DNA of 37,831 nucleotides. It comes from Gallionella sp. GTDB lineage: Bacteria > Pseudomonadota > Gammaproteobacteria > Burkholderiales > Gallionellaceae. Positions within the stretch are counted from its first letter, which is position 1. Every line of letters starts with the position of its first letter. The stretch covers positions 1 to 37,831 of the forward strand of contig JABEVG010000040.1 in NCBI GenBank assembly GCA_013044075.1, in the 5' to 3' direction. Of this stretch, positions 6,997-16,354 are shown one piece after another. The notes under the pieces were generated by a model. That model did no database searches. It was given only the letters and a program-made list of their open reading frames with translations, and had not been told where the DNA came from. The translations under genes were made by a program, and so were the position numbers.

Positions 6997-8460
6997 TTAG
7001 CGTGGCAATACTGACGAACCCATCAGGAACTCATCCACTGCACGGGCGCACTGGCGGCCTTCGCGGATCGCCCAGACGATCAGCGATTGACCGCGACGCA
7101 TGTCGCCCGCAGTAAACACTTTCGCCAGATTGGTGTGATAGGCGTTAGCACCTTCAGTCGTGGCCTTTACATTGTTTCTGCCATCCTTCTCCACACCGAA
7201 GGCATCCAACACCTTCTGTACCGGATTGACAAATCCCATGGCGAGGAACACCAGATCGGCTTTGACTTCGAATTCGCTACCGGGCACTTCTACCATCTTG
7301 CCTTCCTTGAATTCGACGCGCGCGCACAACAGTTTTTCCAGTTTGCCGTTGCTGCCCAGAAACGCTTTGGTCGAAACCGACCAATCGCGATTCGCACCTT
7401 CTTCGTGCGAGCTGGAGGTGCGCAATTTCATCGGCCAGTTCGGCCACACCAGCGACTTGTTCTCTTGTTCGGGAGGGCGTGGCATCACTTCGAACTGCGT
7501 CACGGATGCTGCGCCGTGACGGTTAGACGTGCCCACGCAATCCGAACCGGTATCGCCGCCGCCGATCACCACCACATGCTTGCCGGTGGCGCGTATCTGT
7601 TCGGGCAAGGCATCGCCCGCATTGACGCGATTCTGTTGTGGCAGGAAATCCATCGCGGGATAGATGCCGGTCAGCTCGCGACCCGGCACGGGCAGATCGC
7701 GCGGCGTCTCGGCACCGCCGGCCAGGATGACCGCGTCGAATTCTTTATCCAACTGCTCTGGCGTGATGGTGGTGGTCGCCATGTTGTTCACGCCAATATC
7801 GCTATCGGTACCGATGAACACCGAGGTCTTGAAGGTCACGCCCTCTGCTTCCATCTGCGTCACGCGGCGGTCGATGTGCGATTTTTCCATCTTGAAATCG
7901 GGGATGCCGTAGCGCATCAATCCGCCGATGCGGCTGTTCTTCTCGAATACCGTCACCGCATGACCGGCACGGGCCAGTTGCTGCGCGGCCGCCAGACCTG
8001 CCGGACCGCTGCCCACGACTGCGATTTTTTTTCCGGTTTTTTTCGCATTGACTTGCGGAACGACCCAGCCGTTCTCCCAACCCTTGTCGATGATGGCGTG
8101 CTCAATGGACTTGATGCCGACCGCGTCGTTGTTGATGTTCAGCGTGCAAGCCGCCTCGCAGGGCGCGGGACACAAGCGTCCGGTGAACTCGGGGAAGTTG
8201 TTGGTGGAGTGCAGCACGTCCAGCGCGTTCTGCCAGTCGCCGCGATATACCAGGTCATTCCAGTCCGGGATGATGTTGTTGATCGGGCAGCCCGACGTGC
8301 AGAACGGGATGCCGCAATCCATGCAACGCGCACCCTGTGTTTTGGCCTGATCATCGCTCAGATGCAGCACGAATTCTTTGTAGTTCTTCAGACGCTCGGC
8401 GACAGGCAGATTCGCTTCGGCCAGTCTCTCGAACTCCATAAATCCGGTGGGCTTACCCAT
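6997..8460 (-). CDS. gltD: Glutamate synthase (NADPH) small subunit
   Basis: GltD takes electrons from NADPH through FAD and [4Fe-4S] clusters and passes them to GltB, where 2-oxoglutarate and glutamine are converted to two glutamates. The 487-residue protein has an N-terminal cysteine cluster ([19 protein letters not shown]), an FAD-binding GxGxxG ([19 protein letters not shown]), an NADPH-binding fold ([19 protein letters not shown]) and the C-terminal FAD motif [17 protein letters not shown]. Its ATG overlaps the gltB TAA by one base (TAATG), so translation is coupled, as expected for subunits of one enzyme. Confidence 0.97.
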
Positions 8461-11400
8461 TATGCGACCTCCAGTTGTTTGGCTTTTTGCGCGGCGATGT
8501 CCTGCAAGGCACGACGGTATTCGGTCGGCATCACCTTGGTGAACTTGGGCAGATAGCCGGCCCAGTTCTCCAGTATCAGACGCGCGCGTTCGCTGCCGGT
8601 GTACATCAGATGCTTCTCGATCTGCTCGCGCAGAGCGTGTTCATCGGCTTTGTCGAGATGATTGAAATGCACACGGCCATGCGCTTCGACTTCGCCGGTT
8701 TCACTCGCTGCGGCTTCTTCCGGTATCGGTTCGAGCGCGACCATGGACAGGTTGCAACGCTTCTCGAACTGGCCATCCTCGTCCAGCACGAAGGCCACGC
8801 CACCCGACATACCCGCCGCGAAGTTACGCCCCGTCATGCCCAGCACGATGACCATACCGCCGGTCATGTACTCGCAACCGTGGTCGCCCAGGCCTTCCAC
8901 GACGGCGATCGCGCCGGAGTTGCGCACCGCAAAACGCTCGCCCGCCACACCGTTGAAATAGCATTCGCCGGAAGTCGCACCGTACATCACGGTGTTGCCG
9001 ACAATGATGTTCTCGTGCGACACCAGCTTGGCTTCCGCTGGCGGCATGATGGCGATACGTCCGCCGCACAGGCCTTTGCCCACATAGTCGTTGCCTTCAC
9101 CGCGCAACTCGAACGAGATACCGTGCGACAGGAACGCGCCGAAGCTCTGACCCGCCGTGCCGGTGAACTTCACTTGTATGGTGTCGGTCGGCAGACCAGC
9201 TTGACCGTAACGCTTGGCCACTTCGTGCGACAACATCGTGCCGACGGTGCGGTTGACGTTGCCGATCCTGCTCTCGATGACCACCGGATTTTTGTCGTTC
9301 AACGCCTGCTGCGCCTTGGCGATCAGGGTGTTGTCCAGTGCCTTGTCCAACTCGTGGTCCTGGCCGCTGTCATGGCGGCGCGCCACGCTGGCCGGCATGT
9401 TCGGTTGATGGAACACGCGGGAGAAGTCCAGACCCCGCGACTTCCAGTGCGCGATGCCGTGCTTCACATCGAGCAGATCGCTGCGGCCGATCAGGTCGTC
9501 GAACTTGCGGATACCCATCTGTGCCATCAGCTCGCGCACCTCTTCGGCGACGAAGAAGAAGTAGTTCACCACGTGCTCCGGCTGGCCGGTGAATTTCTTG
9601 CGCAGTTCCGGGTCCTGTGTCGCCACGCCGACCGGGCAGGTGTTCAGATGGCACTTGCGCATCATGATGCAACCTTCCACGACCAGCGGAGCGGTCGCAA
9701 AACCGAACTCGTCCGCACCGAGCAACGCGCCGATCAGCACATCGCGACCGGTCTTCAACTGACCATCGACTTGCAGCGCGATACGGCCGCGCAACTGGTT
9801 CAGCACCAGGGTCTGCTGCGCCTCGGCCAGACCCAGTTCCCAGGGTGTACCGGCATGCTTGATGGAGGAGATGGGCGATGCGCCGGTGCCGCCGTCGAAG
9901 CCGGAAACCACGATGTGGTCGGCCTTGGCTTTGGACACACCCGCTGCCACCGTACCCACGCCGACCTCGGACACCAGCTTCACCGAGATGGAAGCGGTCG
10001 GGTTGGCGTTCTTCAGGTCATGGATGAGCTGCGCCAGATCCTCGATGGAATAGATGTCGTGATGCGGAGGGGGCGAGATCAGACCCACGCCAGGCACGGA
10101 GAAGCGCAGCTTGGCGATGTACTCGGACACCTTGCCGCCGGGCAACTGGCCGCCTTCGCCTGGCTTCGCGCCCTGCGCCATCTTGATCTGGATCTGGTCC
10201 GCGCTGGCCAGGTATTCCGCCGTCACCCCGAAACGACCGGACGCGACCTGCTTGATCTTGGAGCGCAGCGAATCGCCCGGCAGCATCTGCCTGTCCGCTT
10301 CGATACGGCTTTTGCCGATGATGTCGGACAGCATCTCGCCGCCCTTGAATGTTTTGAAGCGTGCGGCATCTTCACCGCCTTCGCCGGTGTTCGATTTGCC
10401 GCCGATACGGTTCATGGCGATGGCCAGCGTGGTGTGCGCCTCGGTGGAGATCGAACCCAGCGACATCGCGCCGGTGACGAAACGCTTGACGATGTCTTTC
10501 GCGGAATCGACTTCATCCAGCGGCACTGCTGCGCCGAGCGGCTTGATCTCGAACAGGCCGCGCAAGGTCTTCAATTTCGACGATTGGTCGTTGATGAGCT
10601 TGGCGTATTCCTTGTAGGTCGCGGCGTTGTTGGTGCGCGTCGCGTTCTGCAACTTGGCGATGGAATCGGGCGTCCACATGTGTTCTTCGCCGCGCACGCG
10701 GTAGGCATATTCGCCGCCCGCTTCCAGCATGTTCGCCAGTACCGGGTCGTTGCCGAACGCGTTGCTGTGCGTGCGCACAGTCTCTTCCGCGACTTCATTG
10801 AGCGAGATGCCTTCGATCTGCGTTGCCGTGCCGGTGAAGAACTCGGCCACGAAACTCGCGTTCAGGCCGATGGCTTCGAAGATCTGCGCGCCGCAATACG
10901 ATTGGTAGGTTGAGATGCCCATCTTGGACATGACTTTCATCAGCCCCTTGTTGATGGCCTTGATGAAACGCTTCTTCGCCTCTTTCACTTCCACGCTGGC
11001 GGGCAACTTCATGGCCGCGATGGTCTCGTAGGCCAGCCACGGGCAGACCGCTTCCGCGCCGTAACCGGCCAGCAGGGCGAAGTGATGCACTTCGCGCGCC
11101 GAACCGGTATCAACCACCAAGCCGGTGCTGGTGCGCGAACCGGCGCGTACCAAATGCAGATGCACCTTGGAGGTCGCCACCAGTGCGGGAATCGCCACAC
11201 GCTGCGCCGACATGGCGCGATCCGACAAAATCAACACGTTGTAGCCATCGGCCACGGCTTGGTCGGCTGCGGCACATAAGGCTTTGACTGCGACTTCGCA
11301 TCCGGCCGCGCCCTGCTCAGCCGGATAGGTGATGTCCAGCACCAGAGAGCGGTATTGGCCTTGGGTCAGGCTGTCGATGTTGCGCAGCTTGGCGATGTCC

Positions 11401-13124
11401 TCGTTGGACAACACCGGCTGATGCACTTCCAGACGCAGGGTGGGGTCGGTCTCGTCTATGCCCAACAGATTCGGTTTCGGCCCGATGAAGGAAGTCAGCG
11501 ACATGACGATCTCTTCGCGTATCGGATCGATGGGCGGGTTGGTCACTTGCGCGAACAACTGCTGGAAGTAATCGTAGAAAGACCGGTTCTTGTTGGACAG
11601 CACCGCCAATGCGGCATCCGTCCCCATCGAACCGGTCGGCTCCTCGCCCGCGTTGACCATAGGTGCGAGGATGAACTTCACGTCTTCCTGCGAGTAGCCG
11701 AACGCTTGCTGCGTGTCGAGCAAGGAAGCATTGAGCGTCTGCTTGCCATTGACAGCGGGCAGATCGCCCAGGAAATAGCGCGACTTTTCTATCCACTGGC
11801 GGTACGGTTTGGCGGTAGCAATCTGGTTCTTCAGCTCACTGTCGTCGATGATGCGTCCGGCTTCCATGTCGATAAGGAACATCTTGCCCGGCTGCAAACG
11901 CCACTTCTTCACCACCTTGTGTTGCGGGATGTGCAGCACGCCCATCTCGGAAGCGAGCAGCACCATGTCGTCATCGGTGATCAGATAACGCGCGGGACGC
12001 AGGCCGTTGCGGTCCAGCGTCGCGCCTATCATCTTGCCGTCGGTGAAGGCCACTGCGGCGGGGCCGTCCCATGGCTCCATCAGTGCGGCGTGATATTCGT
12101 AGAAGGCGCGGCGTTCCTCGTCCATCAGCGGGTTGCCCGCCCAGGCTTCTGGAATCAGAATCATCATCGCGTGGGGCAGCGAATAGCCGCCCGCCACTAA
12201 CAGCTCCAACGCGTTGTCGAAACACGCCGAATCGGACTGACCGTCCACGATCAGCGGCCACAGTTTTTCCAGATCCTCACCCAGCAGGTTAGAAGACATC
12301 GCCGCGTGGCGCGCCGCCATCCAGTTCACGTTGCCGCGCACCGTGTTGATCTCGCCGTTGTGCGCGATCATGCGGAACGGGTGCGCCAGGTTCCAGGTCG
12401 GAAAGGTGTTGGTGGAGAAGCGTTGATGCACCAAGGCCAGCGCGCTGATCAGCGTCGCGTCTTGCAGATCGAGGTAGTACTTGCCGACCTGGTCGGCCAG
12501 CAACATCCCTTTGTAGACGATGGTGCGCGAGGACATGGAAGGACAGTAGAAACCCTTGCCCTGTGCATCGCCCAAACCGCGTACCGCGTGTTCCATGGTC
12601 TTGCGGATGACGAACAGTTTGCGCTCGAAGCCATCCTGGTCCGCGCAATTCTTGCCGCGCGCGATGAACACCTGACGCACCACCGGCTCGACCAGCTTGA
12701 CGCTCTCGCCCAGTATCGAGCTGTCCACCGGCACATCGCGCCAGCCCAGTAAAGACTGGCCTTCGGCGGCGATCTTGTCGGCGACGACCTGCTCACAGGT
12801 CGCGCGCGCCTTGGCATCGCGGGGCAGGAACAACATCGCCACACCATAGCTGCCGACGGCGGGCAAAGTGATATTCGATGCAGCGCATTTCGCGCGCAAG
12901 AAGGCATCCGGCACCTGCAACAAGATACCCGCGCCGTCACCGGCCAGCGGGTCGGCACCCACCGCACCGCGATGCGTCAGGTTCTCCAAAATCTGCAAAC
13001 CCTGACTGACCATGTCATGGCTTTTCTTGCCCTTGATATGAGCAACAAAGCCCACTCCACAGGCATCGCGCTCTTGGCGCGGATCATATAAACCTTGCTG
13101 CATCGGCAAAGAAGAATTGCTCAC
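8460..13124 (-). CDS. gltB: Glutamate synthase (NADPH) large subunit
   Basis: The 1554-residue large subunit carries the N-terminal class II glutamine amidotransferase domain. The catalytic Cys22 ([12 protein letters not shown]) becomes N-terminal after removal of a 21-residue propeptide. An ammonia-channel/central region follows, then the FMN synthase domain ([23 protein letters not shown]) and the C-terminal beta-helix (GXGXG) domain. Cys1152, Cys1158 and Cys1163 ([12 protein letters not shown]) fit the C-x5-C-x4-C ligands of the [3Fe-4S] cluster. The start is a GTG at 13124 with GGGGAA six bases upstream; it leaves a propeptide of usual length. It is the first gene of gltB-gltD-hemE, with a promoter candidate and a terminator-like hairpin in its leader. 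Confidence 0.97.
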
Positions 13125-13167
13125 GGCGTTCCCCAGTAAAAACTCAACAACTCAAAACGTTAAAGCG

Positions 13168-13192
13168 AAAAAATGGCGACACACGTCGCCAT
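13168..13192 (-). terminator. Terminator-like hairpin in the gltB leader (possible attenuator)
   Basis: On the minus strand ATGGCGAC-GTGT-GTCGCCAT is a perfect 8-bp stem with a tetraloop, followed by a run of T. It lies 44 bp before the gltB start and downstream of the predicted gltB promoter, with no upstream minus-strand gene to terminate. Attenuation or premature termination of gltB transcripts is therefore the natural reading. A mini-ORF ATG...TAA of 10 codons (MATCVAIFSL) spans the hairpin exactly, but has no strong ribosome-binding site. Confidence 0.65.
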
Positions 13193-13225
13193 ACCAACTG
13201 CAAATACAAAAGCGAAAGGGCGGGA

Positions 13226-13254
13226 ATCTTACCTTGTCTCAGGGTATAGGGCAA
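13226..13254 (-). promoter_or_regulatory. Candidate sigma70 promoter of gltBD-hemE
   Basis: Minus strand: -35 TTGCCC (13254-13249), 17-bp spacer, -10 TAAGAT (13231-13226), each 4 of 6 matches to consensus. It predicts a start near 13219 and a leader of about 95 nt containing the hairpin at 13192-13168. Confidence 0.45.
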
Positions 13255-13290
13255 CCGCTCTGACACGCCACTGACACTGTTTAAAACAAC

Positions 13291-13319
13291 TTTACGCCGG
13301 TGTGCGTTTTTGTTATGTT
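13291..13319 (+). promoter_or_regulatory. Candidate sigma70 promoter of the mgtA leader
   Basis: TTTACG (13291-13296), a 17-bp spacer and TATGTT (13314-13319) form a weak but correctly spaced promoter. The predicted start near 13326 is just upstream of the SD-preceded mini-ORF at 13351, and gives an mgtA leader of about 260 nt. Confidence 0.3.
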
Positions 13320-13350
13320 GCGCGCCGTTTCGTTCTGTCGAGGGCCCTAT

Positions 13351-13410
13351 ATGGATACGTGTTCAAGTGATCGTTGCACCTTGACGGTCGGCATGCTCTT
13401 GGCAAAGTAA
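13351..13410 (+). CDS. 19-codon upstream ORF in the mgtA leader
   Basis: ATG 13351 to TAA 13408-13410 encodes MDTCSSDRCTLTVGMLLAK. A GAGGG ribosome-binding site at 13340-13344 is six bases before the ATG. The last codons are the 5' arms of two leader helices (13386-13394 and 13395-13405), so a ribosome finishing this ORF would block both. The position recalls the MgtL leader peptide of enterobacterial mgtA, but the sequence is not similar. Like MgtL it has acidic residues near its N-terminus (Asp2, Asp7), which may be coincidence. Translation is not proven. Confidence 0.55.
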   Translation: MDTCSSDRCTLTVGMLLAK

Positions 13411-13587
13411 GCCGCAGAATCTTCTCTGTCGCTATCTTGCCAAGAGCGAGATAGCGGTTTCACCCGGAGCGTTTGCTCCAAATCGCGACAATTCTCACCG
13501 CATCCCGAAGACCGGCACATTAGTGCTGCGACTCTCGCGTTTATGCCGACCTTTTCCATACGCTGTATGAAGCATAGAAGGGAAAAG
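13386..13587 (+). ncRNA. Structured 5' leader / candidate cis-regulatory RNA of mgtA
   Basis: A set of perfect helices can be drawn. P1: GGTCGGCAT 13386-13394 with ATGCCGACC 13543-13551, a 9-bp closing helix. P2: GCTCTTGGCAA 13395-13405 with TTGCCAAGAGC 13437-13447, 11 bp and stacked directly on P1. P3: GGAGC-GTTT-GCTCC 13466-13479. P4: 13513-13518 with 13523-13528 around ATTA. A competing helix, CGCTATCT 13430-13437 with AGATAGCG 13449-13456, cannot coexist with P2. A last hairpin, CTTTTCC 13551-13557 with GGAAAAG 13581-13587, covers most of the mgtA Shine-Dalgarno AGAAGGGA (13576-13583). No T-run follows the helices, so control at the ribosome-binding site or Rho-dependent termination is more likely than intrinsic termination. 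I recognise no named riboswitch class. Confidence 0.6.
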
Positions 13588-13588
13588 C

Positions 13589-16354
13589 ATGAGCCCAGAT
13601 TTTTTTAAGGAATTCTTCGCGGGATTTATCCGCACCCGCGCCATCAGCCGCCACTTCCGGCGGCTCGCCATACTCGATGCCATCAAAGGCACGACAGTCG
13701 CGCGCGATGTCCCTTCCACACTGAGTCACACGCTGACGGATGCGGCCTATCGCGCGGCCGATCCGCTGCTGGCCGGACTGGACAGCCATCTCGACGGCTT
13801 GTCCGAGACCCAGGCGGAACTGATCCGCGCGCGCGTCGGCACCAATGAAGTCGAGCATGAAAAGCCGCTCCCGGCCTGGCTGCATCTTTGGTATTGCTAC
13901 AAAAATCCGTTCAGCCTGTTGCTGACGGTGCTGGCCGCCATCTCTTTTTTCACCGAGGACATCAAGGCCGCCATCGTGATTTCCGCCATGGTGGTGCTGG
14001 CCACGCTCATCCGTTTTATCCAGGAAAGCCGCTCCAACAATGCGGCTGACAAACTCAAGGAGATGGTGAGCAATACGGCGACCGTGCTGCGCCGCGACCC
14101 CGCGCAGGATGCCGCCGAGGAAGCACGCCGCTACTTCAATGTGGTGCTGCATCCCAAAGGCCCGCGCAAGGCCGAGGTCGCCATCAAACTGTTGGTACCC
14201 GGCGATCTGGTACTGCTGTCGGCGGGCGATATGATCCCCGCCGACCTGCGTATCCTGTCCGCCAAAGACCTGTTCGTCAGCCAATCGGCGATGACGGGAG
14301 AATCCATGCCGGTGGAAAAATTTGCCGACCAGCGCGTCGCCAACGTCAGCAATGCCATCGAGCTCGACAACATTCTGTTCATGGGGACCAACGTGGTCAG
14401 CGGTTCGGCCAAGGCGGTGGTGATCGCCACAGGCGGCAACACCTATTTCGGCGCGTTGGCACAACGGGTGACCGCCACCACGCGCACCCTGACTTCTTTT
14501 CAGGCCGGCATCAACAAGGTCAGCTGGTTGCTGATCCGTTTCATGCTGGTGATGACCCCGGTGGTGCTGCTCATCAACGGTTTTACCAAAGGGGATTGGC
14601 TGGAGGCCTCGCTGTTCGCTTTGTCGGTGGCGGTGGGCCTGACCCCCGAGATGCTGCCGATGATCGTCACCACCACGCTCGCCAAAGGTGCAGTGGTGTT
14701 GTCGCGGCAAAAGGTGATCGTCAAACGTCTGGATGCAATCCAGAACTTCGGTGCGATGGACGTGCTGTGCACCGACAAGACCGGCACGCTGACCCAGGAC
14801 AAGATTTTCCTCGAACGTCACACCGACGTGTTCGGGCATGCATCGGACACGGTGCTCAATTACGCTTACCTGAACAGCTATTACCAGACCGGGCTGAAGA
14901 ACCTGCTGGATGTGGCGGTGCTGGAACACGTCGAGGTTCACCAGGAGCTGTCCATCAACACGGCGTTCCACAAGATCGACGAGATCCCTTTCGACTTCGT
15001 GCGCCGCCGGATGTCGGTGGTGGTTGCCGAACAGGACGGGCAACATCTGCTGATCTGCAAAGGAGCACTGGAAGAAGTGCTCGCGATATGCGACCAGGTC
15101 AGGCACGGCGACCAGGTCGAGCCCTTGCAATCCGACGTGCTGGCGCGTATCCGTGCCGTGACCGCCTCCTTGAATGAAGAAGGCCTGCGGGTCGTCGCAG
15201 TCGCCGCAAAAGAAATGGCCAGCCCCTGTGTTTCGTACAGTGTTGGCGATGAAAATGCATTGACGCTGATCGGCTATATCGCCTTCCTCGACCCGCCCAA
15301 AGAATCCACCGCGCCGGCCATCAAGGCACTCAAAGAGCATGGCGTGACCGTCAAGGTGCTGACCGGCGATAACGAGCTGGTGACGCTCAAAATCTGCCGC
15401 GAAGTGGGGCTGCCGATAGCGGGCGTGCTGCTGGGCGCGCAGGTCGAGGACATGCCCGAAGCGGTGTTGGCCGAGCAAGTCGAGCAATGCAACATCTTCG
15501 CCAAGCTGACCCCCTCTCACAAAGAACGCATCGTCCAGGCACTGCGCCGCAACGGCCATGTGGTCGGATTCATGGGCGACGGCATCAACGACGCGCCCGC
15601 CCTGCGCGCCGCCGACATCGGCATCTCGGTGGATACCGCCGTGGATATCGCCAAAGAAGCGGCGGACATCATTCTGCTCGAGCGCAGCCTGATGGTGCTG
15701 GAAGAAGGCGTGATCGAAGGACGCAAGACCTCCGCCAACATGTTGAAGTACATCAAGATGACCGCCAGCTCCAATTTCGGCAACGTGTTCTCGGTGCTGG
15801 TGGCGGGTGCATTCCTCCCGTTTTTGCCGATGCTGCCGCTGCATCTGCTGGTGCAGAACCTGCTGTATGACTTCTCCCAGATTGCCATCCCGTTCGATAG
15901 CGTGGATGAGGAACAGGTCAAATATCCGCAAAGCTGGAAGCCGGACGACATCGGCCGCTTCATGATATTTTTCGGGCCGATCAGCTCGATCTTCGACATC
16001 GTCACCTATTGCCTGATGTGGTTCGTGTTTTCCGCCAACACGACGGAACAGCAGACCCTGTTCCAGTCCGGCTGGTTTGTCGAAGGGCTGATGTCGCAGA
16101 CGCTGATCGTGCATATGATACGCACGCAAAAGATCCCCTTCCTCCAGAGCAAGCCCAGCTGGCAGTTGATGAGCGCGACCATACTCATCGTCTCCGCCGG
16201 TATTTTCCTGGTGATGGGACCGTATGCGAGCTACTTCAAACTGCAAGCCTTGCCGCCGGTCTACTTCGTGTATCTGTCCGTCATTCTGCTGGGTTACATG
16301 GTGCTCACCCAAGCCATGAAAGGCATCTACACCCGCAAATACGGCTGGCAATAG
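13589..16354 (+). CDS. mgtA: Mg2+-importing P-type ATPase
   Basis: The 921-residue protein is a P-type (P3B) ATPase that brings Mg2+ into the cytoplasm at the inner membrane. Visible landmarks are the actuator TGES (236-239), the phosphorylation motif DKTGTLT with Asp396, the hinge GDGINDAPALRAADIGISVDTAVD (from residue 663) and about ten membrane segments. The transmembrane segments include PFSLLLTVLAAISFF and the C-terminal cluster with SSNFGNVFSVLVAGAFLPFLPM, which is characteristic of MgtA/MgtB. ATG 13589 has AGAAGGGA upstream. The gene sits behind a long structured leader with a mini-ORF and is followed after 80 bp by a porin gene on the same strand. Low-Mg2+ induction is expected from the family, not shown by the sequence. 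Confidence 0.95.
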   Translation: MSPDFFKEFFAGFIRTRAISRHFRRLAILDAIKGTTVARDVPSTLSHTLTDAAYRAADPLLAGLDSHLDGLSETQAELIRARVGTNEVEHEKPLPAWLHLWYCYKNPFSLLLTVLAAISFFTEDIKAAIVISAMVVLATLIRFIQESRSNNAADKLKEMVSNTATVLRRDPAQDAAEEARRYFNVVLHPKGPRKAEVAIKLLVPGDLVLLSAGDMIPADLRILSAKDLFVSQSAMTGESMPVEKFADQRVANVSNAIELDNILFMGTNVVSGSAKAVVIATGGNTYFGALAQRVTATTRTLTSFQAGINKVSWLLIRFMLVMTPVVLLINGFTKGDWLEASLFALSVAVGLTPEMLPMIVTTTLAKGAVVLSRQKVIVKRLDAIQNFGAMDVLCTDKTGTLTQDKIFLERHTDVFGHASDTVLNYAYLNSYYQTGLKNLLDVAVLEHVEVHQELSINTAFHKIDEIPFDFVRRRMSVVVAEQDGQHLLICKGALEEVLAICDQVRHGDQVEPLQSDVLARIRAVTASLNEEGLRVVAVAAKEMASPCVSYSVGDENALTLIGYIAFLDPPKESTAPAIKALKEHGVTVKVLTGDNELVTLKICREVGLPIAGVLLGAQVEDMPEAVLAEQVEQCNIFAKLTPSHKERIVQALRRNGHVVGFMGDGINDAPALRAADIGISVDTAVDIAKEAADIILLERSLMVLEEGVIEGRKTSANMLKYIKMTASSNFGNVFSVLVAGAFLPFLPMLPLHLLVQNLLYDFSQIAIPFDSVDEEQVKYPQSWKPDDIGRFMIFFGPISSIFDIVTYCLMWFVFSANTTEQQTLFQSGWFVEGLMSQTLIVHMIRTQKIPFLQSKPSWQLMSATILIVSAGIFLVMGPYASYFKLQALPPVYFVYLSVILLGYMVLTQAMKGIYTRKYGWQ

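Follow-up and report, generated by a model that had tools for sequence, protein, structure and literature searches.

Known magnesium-responsive leaders include the M-box (ykoK; RF00380) and the enterobacterial mgtL and corL leaders, and the classic Mg2+ genes are those for MgtA, CorA and MgtC. Here we describe, from comparative sequence work, the leader of mgtA on a contig of Gallionella sp. (JABEVG010000040.1, positions 1-37,831, forward strand; this whole stretch of 37,831 nucleotides (nt) is called the window). The leader spans 13326-13588, between a minus-strand gene at 8460-13124 and the plus-strand mgtA, and belongs to a conserved leader family across Burkholderiales and some Pseudomonas which is apparently undescribed. 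We lean towards the view that it is a cis-regulatory element controlling Mg2+ transport genes by reading the progress of a ribosome on an open reading frame (ORF) of 10-22 codons.

According to an excerpt of PMC11552253, efficient translation of the upstream ORF (uORF) leads to the OFF fold in mgtL and corL, the peptide MgtL relies on proline and acidic residues, and pyrimidine-rich Rho-utilisation (rut) regions flank stem B of corA. The M-box controls several unrelated families of Mg2+ transporters including Nramp-related genes, one of which was discovered behind its Mg2+ riboswitch and then shown to transport Mg2+ (excerpt of PMC4072509). Short ORFs and attenuation are also described for the Salmonella mgtCBR tandem-attenuator leader (excerpt of PMC3641672).

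The layout shared by the new family is a Shine-Dalgarno sequence (SD) with an ORF, a strand A at or just behind the ORF end, a strand B that pairs with either A or a further strand C, a C-rich stretch, and the gene. Like the enterobacterial mgtA leader with MgtL (RF01056, Magnesium-II), the window's leader has a short, SD-preceded ORF whose end lies in mutually exclusive helices, and a candidate pyrimidine-rich rut region. The two differ in that no covariance-model match was obtained either way: RF01056 gave no match in the window at its gathering threshold (40 bits), nor any at E values up to 5 in 13130-13650, and no gathering-level match in 34 related loci, while the control, the E. coli mgtA leader, scored 125.8 bits. 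The peptides differ as well, since neither the window nor the family has the Pro/acidic-rich type of MgtL; the family is rich in serine and cysteine and the window's peptide lacks proline.

The corA leader was compared by means of two covariance models of the new element, R1 (built from 33 sequences, 140 positions) and the broader R2 (built from 101 sequences). In our reading, ysgD of E. coli K-12 is corL, given its place and UUG start. Most corA-linked members of the family likewise start with UUG (LGSPYSDMRPSLHGRLAR and others; L114 starts with GTG), and the N-terminus of the E. coli ORF, LDTPSRYW, resembles the family's MDTCSS or LGSP. R2 matched exactly this ORF weakly and at full length (6.2 bits; E 1.5 in 64 kb, or 0.0094 if only 401 bases are searched), which is not significant, as that locus holds two other matches of 6.3 bits each. 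R1 had no match to the E. coli corA leader, and R2, the one model run on 12 other corA loci, found nothing above 9.2 bits there. The 12 loci were also searched for mini-ORFs, and one of them, L298 from the window's order, has a mini-ORF of another kind, MDSTPPSCVLSATPVTV, which is preceded by an SD and lies 175 nt ahead of corA; by eye, the end of this ORF could pair with a stretch further down (GTGCTTTCAGCC with GGCTGAAAGCAC).

The M-box was not among the Rfam matches for the window or the 34 related loci, and it differs from the new element in that here an ORF is an integral part. The mgtCBR leader, which likewise stands before mgtC, was compared by description rather than alignment; the new element has a single ORF. 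By analogy, the best reading is that the new element would work like the enterobacterial mgtL and corL leaders with a different peptide and a different RNA. That it matches no named riboswitch class, as an earlier note made from the DNA letters alone had put it, was confirmed with Rfam 15, which gave no hit to the element either in the window or in the 34 related loci (two unrelated matches were found there; at least one of these loci, L007, lacked the element as fetched). Titles and abstract openings returned by a literature search held no description of this leader family. In an excerpt of PMC3521395, mgtC2 adjoins a predicted Burkholderia small RNA homologue in one genome, which may or may not be this element; in one of PMC4035088, the MgtC gene appears only as a predicted small RNA target.

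Helices, mini-ORF and distribution of the element

The features of the leader on which the family was compared are as follows.

13340-13344, plus strand: Shine-Dalgarno sequence of the mini-ORF, GAGGG (from the sequence).
13351-13410, plus strand: leader mini-ORF of 19 codons, MDTCSSDRCTLTVGMLLAK followed by a stop (translated sequence; family conservation).
13395-13405, plus strand: 5' arm of helix P1 (strand A), the last codons of the mini-ORF, GCTCTTGGCAA (fold; covariation; arm-swap test).
13437-13447, plus strand: 3' arm of P1, overlapping strands B and C of helix P2, TTGCCAAGAGC (arm-swap test; covariation; fold).
13429-13440, plus strand: 5' arm of P2 (strand B), shared with P1, TCGCTATCTTGC (12 pairs; fold; covariation).
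13446-13457, plus strand: 3' arm of P2 (strand C), GCGAGATAGCGG (fold; covariation).
13386-13394, plus strand: 5' arm of the long-range helix P3, GGTCGGCAT (stacked on P1; conservation not significant).
13543-13551, plus strand: 3' arm of P3, ATGCCGACC (9-base-pair perfect pairing; in the minimum-free-energy fold).

In the window, P1 consists of 11 perfect base pairs (bp) contiguous with P3, and both helices are held by the minimum-free-energy fold of the leader, which at -96.7 kcal/mol beats all 200 of 200 dinucleotide shuffles (-78.2 +/- 4.8; z -3.9). P1 and P2 are mutually exclusive because strand B pairs with both A and C. Enforcing P2 gives -89.0 kcal/mol, a cost of 7.7 against the optimum with P1 and P3; P2 forms once the ORF is omitted (13425-13592 folded alone). 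The ORF with GAGGG upstream, the perfect 9-bp and 11-bp helices stacked on each other, and the last ORF codons as one arm of mutually exclusive helices had all been pointed out in the earlier note and stand. Its 8-bp helix (13430-13437/13449-13456) does exclude P1, but it proved to be the middle of the longer, 12-pair P2.

A non-redundant set of 123 family members was picked from 220 extracted elements after removal of six loci, namely L186 and L120 at contig ends and L137, L140, L141 and L157, which lack a matching gene. The training set of R1 includes 21 of the 123. Among all the loci gathered, a few occur twice under different handles. A P2-type hairpin occurs in all 123, with widely differing sequences. 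In a 101-row alignment, two-sided changes were found at 12 of 12 P2 pairs and at 6 of 6 pairs of a hairpin inside the ORF, which is present in many family members. P2 and the ORF-internal hairpin, but not P1, guided the fit of this alignment (A2). For the fitted structure 88.9% of cells are paired, against 34-53% when it is slid along the alignment, with 247 two-sided changes against 74 in shuffles; for P1 the corresponding figures are 81.7% (77.1% shuffled, 24-52% slid) and 70 against 31. Each member's own arms pair better than arms swapped between members, with z -22.5 for P2, where the test favours own arms because these were defined via the best hairpin, and z -11.3 for P1. Covariation supports P2, the ORF-internal hairpin and, less strongly, P1, so that the compensatory changes among homologues by which the earlier note wished to be judged are present in all three.

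Codons were counted in 121 scored members (L008 and L058 were excluded as their start was mis-assigned). An ORF of 10-22 codons runs from the aligned start in 121/121, despite its varying length, which bears out the mini-ORF conservation named as another test, although this conservation is conditional because the members were found with a model that contains the ORF start. A first stop within the same range occurs in frame +1 in 50/121 and in frame +2 in 2/121. The start codon is GTG in 69 members, ATG in 41 and TTG in 11; GGAG precedes it in 103, the remaining 18 have a less strong purine motif there, and the ORF ends 10-46 nt before strand B. The most conserved block of the whole element is formed by the SD, the start codon and the first codons of the ORF. 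Codon 5 is serine in 109 of the 121, and serine and cysteine together make up 33% of the family peptides on average. Peptides retrieved by a regular expression mostly read V/M-G-T-C-S-S-D-S...A-R, with an N-terminal GTCSSDS that is DTCSSD in the window. No proline occurs in 58 of the 121 peptides and at least two in 22, with a mean of 1.2 acidic residues; the window's peptide has two aspartates. Among codons with a single change, 44.5% are synonymous in frame 0, against 25.1% expected.

With blastn, the leader matched mgtA loci of the closest genomes and leaders of Pseudomonas; in Sulfuricella and in a further metagenome-assembled genome the match lies some 1.6 kb ahead of mgtA, a porin-like gene separating the two. 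The mini-ORF regular expression retrieved 45 loci (42 distinct, the window's own included). R1 found 40 places at E <=0.001 in 39 of 80 sources examined; 39 of these lie upstream of mgtA on its strand, and the remaining one, in L084, is an additional copy that follows mgtA and precedes a porin-like gene. At E <=0.01, R1 found the element in 32/399 genomes of the order (27/158 genera). In further R1 searches it was found in 2/369 of a class sample (the window's genome and one weak match), in 3/249 of a phylum sample (the window's genome, one of the order and one of the class), in 12/198 Pseudomonadaceae (the family of a Pseudomonas protegens genome) and in 102/245 genomes of the family of a Herbaspirillum genome, where it occupies 130 places with up to four copies each. 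The order, class and phylum counts include the window's genome, and those of the latter two families include genomes used to train R1; weak members were missed since filters are stricter in large searches. Five genomes that were scored more fully have one copy each.

Within the window's genus, R2 matched 24/76 genomes at E <=0.1, many of them weakly. A strong new match (L302) stands before a cation-diffusion-facilitator-like gene followed by a CorA-like gene, and weaker ones stand before mgtA (L307, E 1.1e-5) and an Nramp-like gene (L308, E 2.0e-4), the names of the non-mgtA genes being read from sequence. The other weak matches inspected by eye (L309-L312) showed no such leader, and a possible second copy in the window's genome, matched on contig C57 at E 0.044, falls within an open reading frame and was judged a chance match.

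Genes behind the element

Genes downstream were classed by similarity to reference proteins taken from such loci, with Pfam run on representatives only (matches: OprB, CorA, BPD_transp_1, MgtC, Nramp, NicO, and ABC_tran with AAA_assoc_C). Of the 167 loci examined, 161 have as their first classed gene, within 847 nt of the element and at widely varying distances, one for MgtA, MgtC, CorA, Nramp, an OprB porin, an ABC permease, an unnamed outer-membrane-type protein or NicO; five loci have none of these and one is cut by a contig edge. MgtA, CorA or MgtC comes first in 108 of the 167. The 29 loci of the order, drawn from 33 places by leaving out the window and three unfetched places, have MgtA (12), OprB (8), ABC permease (2), the unnamed outer-membrane-type protein (2), CorA (1) or none (4). 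Twelve Pseudomonadaceae loci have MgtA (10), MgtC (1) or, behind a partial match, none (1). The 126 loci fetched from the 130 places in the Herbaspirillum family are made up of MgtA (59), MgtC (20), ABC permease (13), OprB (11), Nramp (9), the outer-membrane-type protein (6), CorA (5), NicO (2) and the contig-edge cut (1). In L004 and L005 mgtA follows the porin, and in L112, L115 and L145 it follows the unnamed outer-membrane-type protein.

One element in front of four unrelated protein classes that are known, or have been reported, to deal with Mg2+ (P-type ATPase, CorA, MgtC and Nramp-related) is hard to explain without Mg2+, and an element before so many different magnesium-related transporters probably tunes Mg2+ uptake in these bacteria. 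The earlier note, which saw in the window an independent or highly diverged mgtA leader of one betaproteobacterium, was right about the mgtA leader and too narrow in treating it as a one-off.

Tentatively we go further, with a proposal we find plausible but would not yet favour: that many Burkholderiales and some Pseudomonas govern their Mg2+ supply through a single unnamed RNA/uORF class, in which a nascent peptide rich in Ser and Cys (GTCSSDS) acts as a sort of Mg2+ sensor that differs from the Pro/acidic MgtL. Under this proposal the OprB-type porins, the ABC permease with its ATPase and the small outer-membrane-type protein would all take part in Mg2+ uptake, a role so far unrecognised. 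A widespread family that Rfam 15 lacks, placed before several classes of Mg2+ transporter in a large bacterial order, would mean that ribosome-read control by Mg2+ is commoner than thought; its natural variants could be used to work out how the ribosome senses Mg2+, and new Mg2+ genes are predicted by association.

Among the genes so marked, the small outer-membrane-type protein (about 240-280 amino acids) was seen behind the leader in L112 (1711-2547), L115, L145, L158, L159 and L169, and the one tested had no Pfam match. The ABC system, with a fused permease, was seen in L206 (744-3814), L189, L218, L221, L210 and L207. Its ATPase was read in L206 and L189, with an AAA_assoc_C domain in L189, and an OprB-type porin precedes the system in L189, L218 and L221; a fair guess is that it carries Mg2+ or a linked ion. 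In L225 and L203 the element stands before a gene classed with NicO (nickel/cobalt transport), Pfam having been run on the L225 protein only. Near one ABC-type locus, at L213 4703-4768, lies a Betaproteobacteria toxic small RNA (RF02278, 53 bits).

Proposed mechanism and rival explanations

The element is best read as a Mg2+-responsive, uORF-controlled attenuator which is probably Rho-dependent; we infer its polarity, the involvement of Rho and the sensing of Mg2+. When Mg2+ is plentiful, the ribosome would finish the ORF and cover strand A so that P2 forms, and Rho would load on the C-rich RNA around P2 and end transcription (OFF). When Mg2+ is scarce, translation of the Ser/Cys-rich N-terminal part would stall or abort and leave A free, P1 would form and transcription would continue into mgtA (ON). 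In the window's clade, P3 and a hairpin at the ribosome-binding site of mgtA (P4) may add a translational layer. The assignment of the finished ORF and P2 to OFF and of P1 to ON follows from analogy with mgtL and corL. What suggests Rho is the following stretch.

13473-13522, plus strand: C-rich, G-poor stretch behind P2, candidate Rho-utilisation site (18 C and 8 G of 50).

Such a C-rich, G-poor and unstructured stretch upstream of the gene is what a Rho-dependent attenuator is expected to have. C exceeds G in the 50-nt stretch from +15 to +65 behind P2 in 116/123 members, and the bias is gone further down (+110 to +160; 57/122). The stretch is little structured (local fold mean z -0.65, below -2 in 12/123). 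Sequestration of the stretch by strands C or A was rejected, own pairing being weaker than swapped (z +4.0 and +4.1), and strand B shows no own-pairing with it either (z +0.6). Intrinsic termination of the trp type was rejected as the general mode, with terminator-like sites in only 7/123 members.

Several observations weigh against the attenuator. The polarity is assigned by analogy and is not fixed by the sequence, and the absence of pairing between strand C and the rut-like stretch leaves the simplest version, in which the rut is sequestered, unsupported. The excerpt of PMC11552253 also states that Rho-dependent termination went undetected in E. coli mgtA. Two of the five measures for P1 are not extreme: the number of P1 pairs with a two-sided change is 9 against 7.0 in shuffles, a value reached by 39/500 of them, and its pair-type count is reached by 12/500. 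Compared with shuffled A regions, P1 has a mean z of -1.65 and falls below -2 in only 40/123, and for the window itself, pairing of the ORF tail with strand B, in the segments used for this test, is no better than shuffled (z -0.9) despite the perfect full 11-bp P1. The coding signal is unclean, as the synonymous excess also appears in frame +1 (49.7% against 32.7% expected), so that constraints on peptide and RNA are not separated and the conservation of the ORF is perhaps partly one of RNA. No known stalling motif was spotted in the leader peptide. In some Herbaspirillum-type members (L228 and the like) the ORF stops before strand A, where the footprint of a terminating ribosome might still reach A. 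The link to Mg2+ is drawn from the downstream genes alone; among these, NicO (2 loci) and Nramp would also suit other metals, and the ABC system comes without an assigned substrate.

A rival view is that the uORF switch is real, yet answers to Ser/Cys charging, another divalent metal, polyamines or envelope stress. We consider this unlikely. The composition of the peptides would suit it, as would the Nramp (9 loci) and NicO genes behind the element. However, one would look for a Ser/Cys attenuator in front of amino-acid genes and none of these is among those classed, classic Mg2+ genes come first in nearly two thirds of the loci, and the Nramp-related Mg2+ transporter of PMC4072509 owes its discovery to a Mg2+ riboswitch. 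We also think it unlikely that the RNA itself folds around Mg2+ as a direct Mg2+-binding riboswitch, the ORF being a by-product or a mere folding aid. Its structure is strongly conserved, and for Salmonella mgtA the folding of the RNA in response to Mg2+ has been shown to suffice on its own for modulating Rho termination (excerpt of PMC11552253). Yet a large conserved aptamer core was not seen outside P1, P2 and the hairpin within the ORF, Rfam gave no match, and conservation is highest around the start of the ORF, whose start and in-frame stop are kept in every scored member.

A mainly translational control, in which the ribosome on the ORF alters access to the downstream ribosome-binding site through P3 and P4, draws on the scarcity of sites resembling intrinsic terminators and on the following hairpin.

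13551-13587, plus strand: P4, hairpin at the mgtA ribosome-binding site, CTTTTCC 13551-13557 with GGAAAAG 13581-13587.

Counterparts of P4 of 5-7 bp, in several sequence versions, were seen by eye in 6/6 leaders of the window's clade, the only ones inspected. The helix that the earlier note placed over the mgtA SD exists, but it reaches only the end of that SD (AGAAGGG, 13576-13582) plus the spacer. P3 fared worse. Among the six clade leaders 77/720 permutations were as good, and in 32 leaders, mostly of Pseudomonas and including the window and one relative, own pairing was no better than permuted (-17.4 against -17.7). The 9-bp helix was therefore rejected as a core of the family and is at best restricted to the window's clade. 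Together with the wide variation in distance between element and gene, this makes translational control as the main mode quite improbable. The shortness of the single helices is all that speaks for an ordinary untranslated leader with structure by chance; this reading is already contradicted by the shuffles, the recurrence in many genomes and the covariation, and has next to no probability left. Set against these accounts, the uORF-controlled attenuator is the reading we keep.

The mgtA locus and minor features of the leaders

Two further features frame the leader in the window.

13291-13319, plus strand: predicted sigma-70 type promoter, by eye (-35 TTTACG at 13291-13296; extended -10 TGTTATGTT, hexamer TATGTT at 13314-13319).
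13589-16354, plus strand: mgtA, 921 amino acids, Mg2+-translocating P-type ATPase.

The mgtA product matches TIGR01524 at 1328 bits (cut-off 610.75), and the minus-strand gene upstream is, from its size alone, presumably gltB. A promoter-like sequence, YTTTAC-N12-TTTTGYTAYNNT, is present by eye in 6/6 leaders of the window's clade. It suggests that transcription would start near 13326, ahead of the mini-ORF and not downstream of 13410, the placement by which the earlier note would have been refuted. A candidate PhoP box at about 13279-13295 (TGTTTA-N5-ACTTTA) was set aside, its first half not being kept, by eye, in five relatives. The PhoQ sensor domain (PF08918) was not found in the window's assembly, which is 93% complete, and was found in the E. 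coli control.

In Pseudomonas leaders (e.g. L017) a block, CTCTCATCGACGCTGA, lies by eye some 35-40 nt behind P2, and many Pseudomonas-type leaders carry a later GCCTGCC...GGC(A/G)GGC hairpin between P2 and mgtA, also seen by eye.

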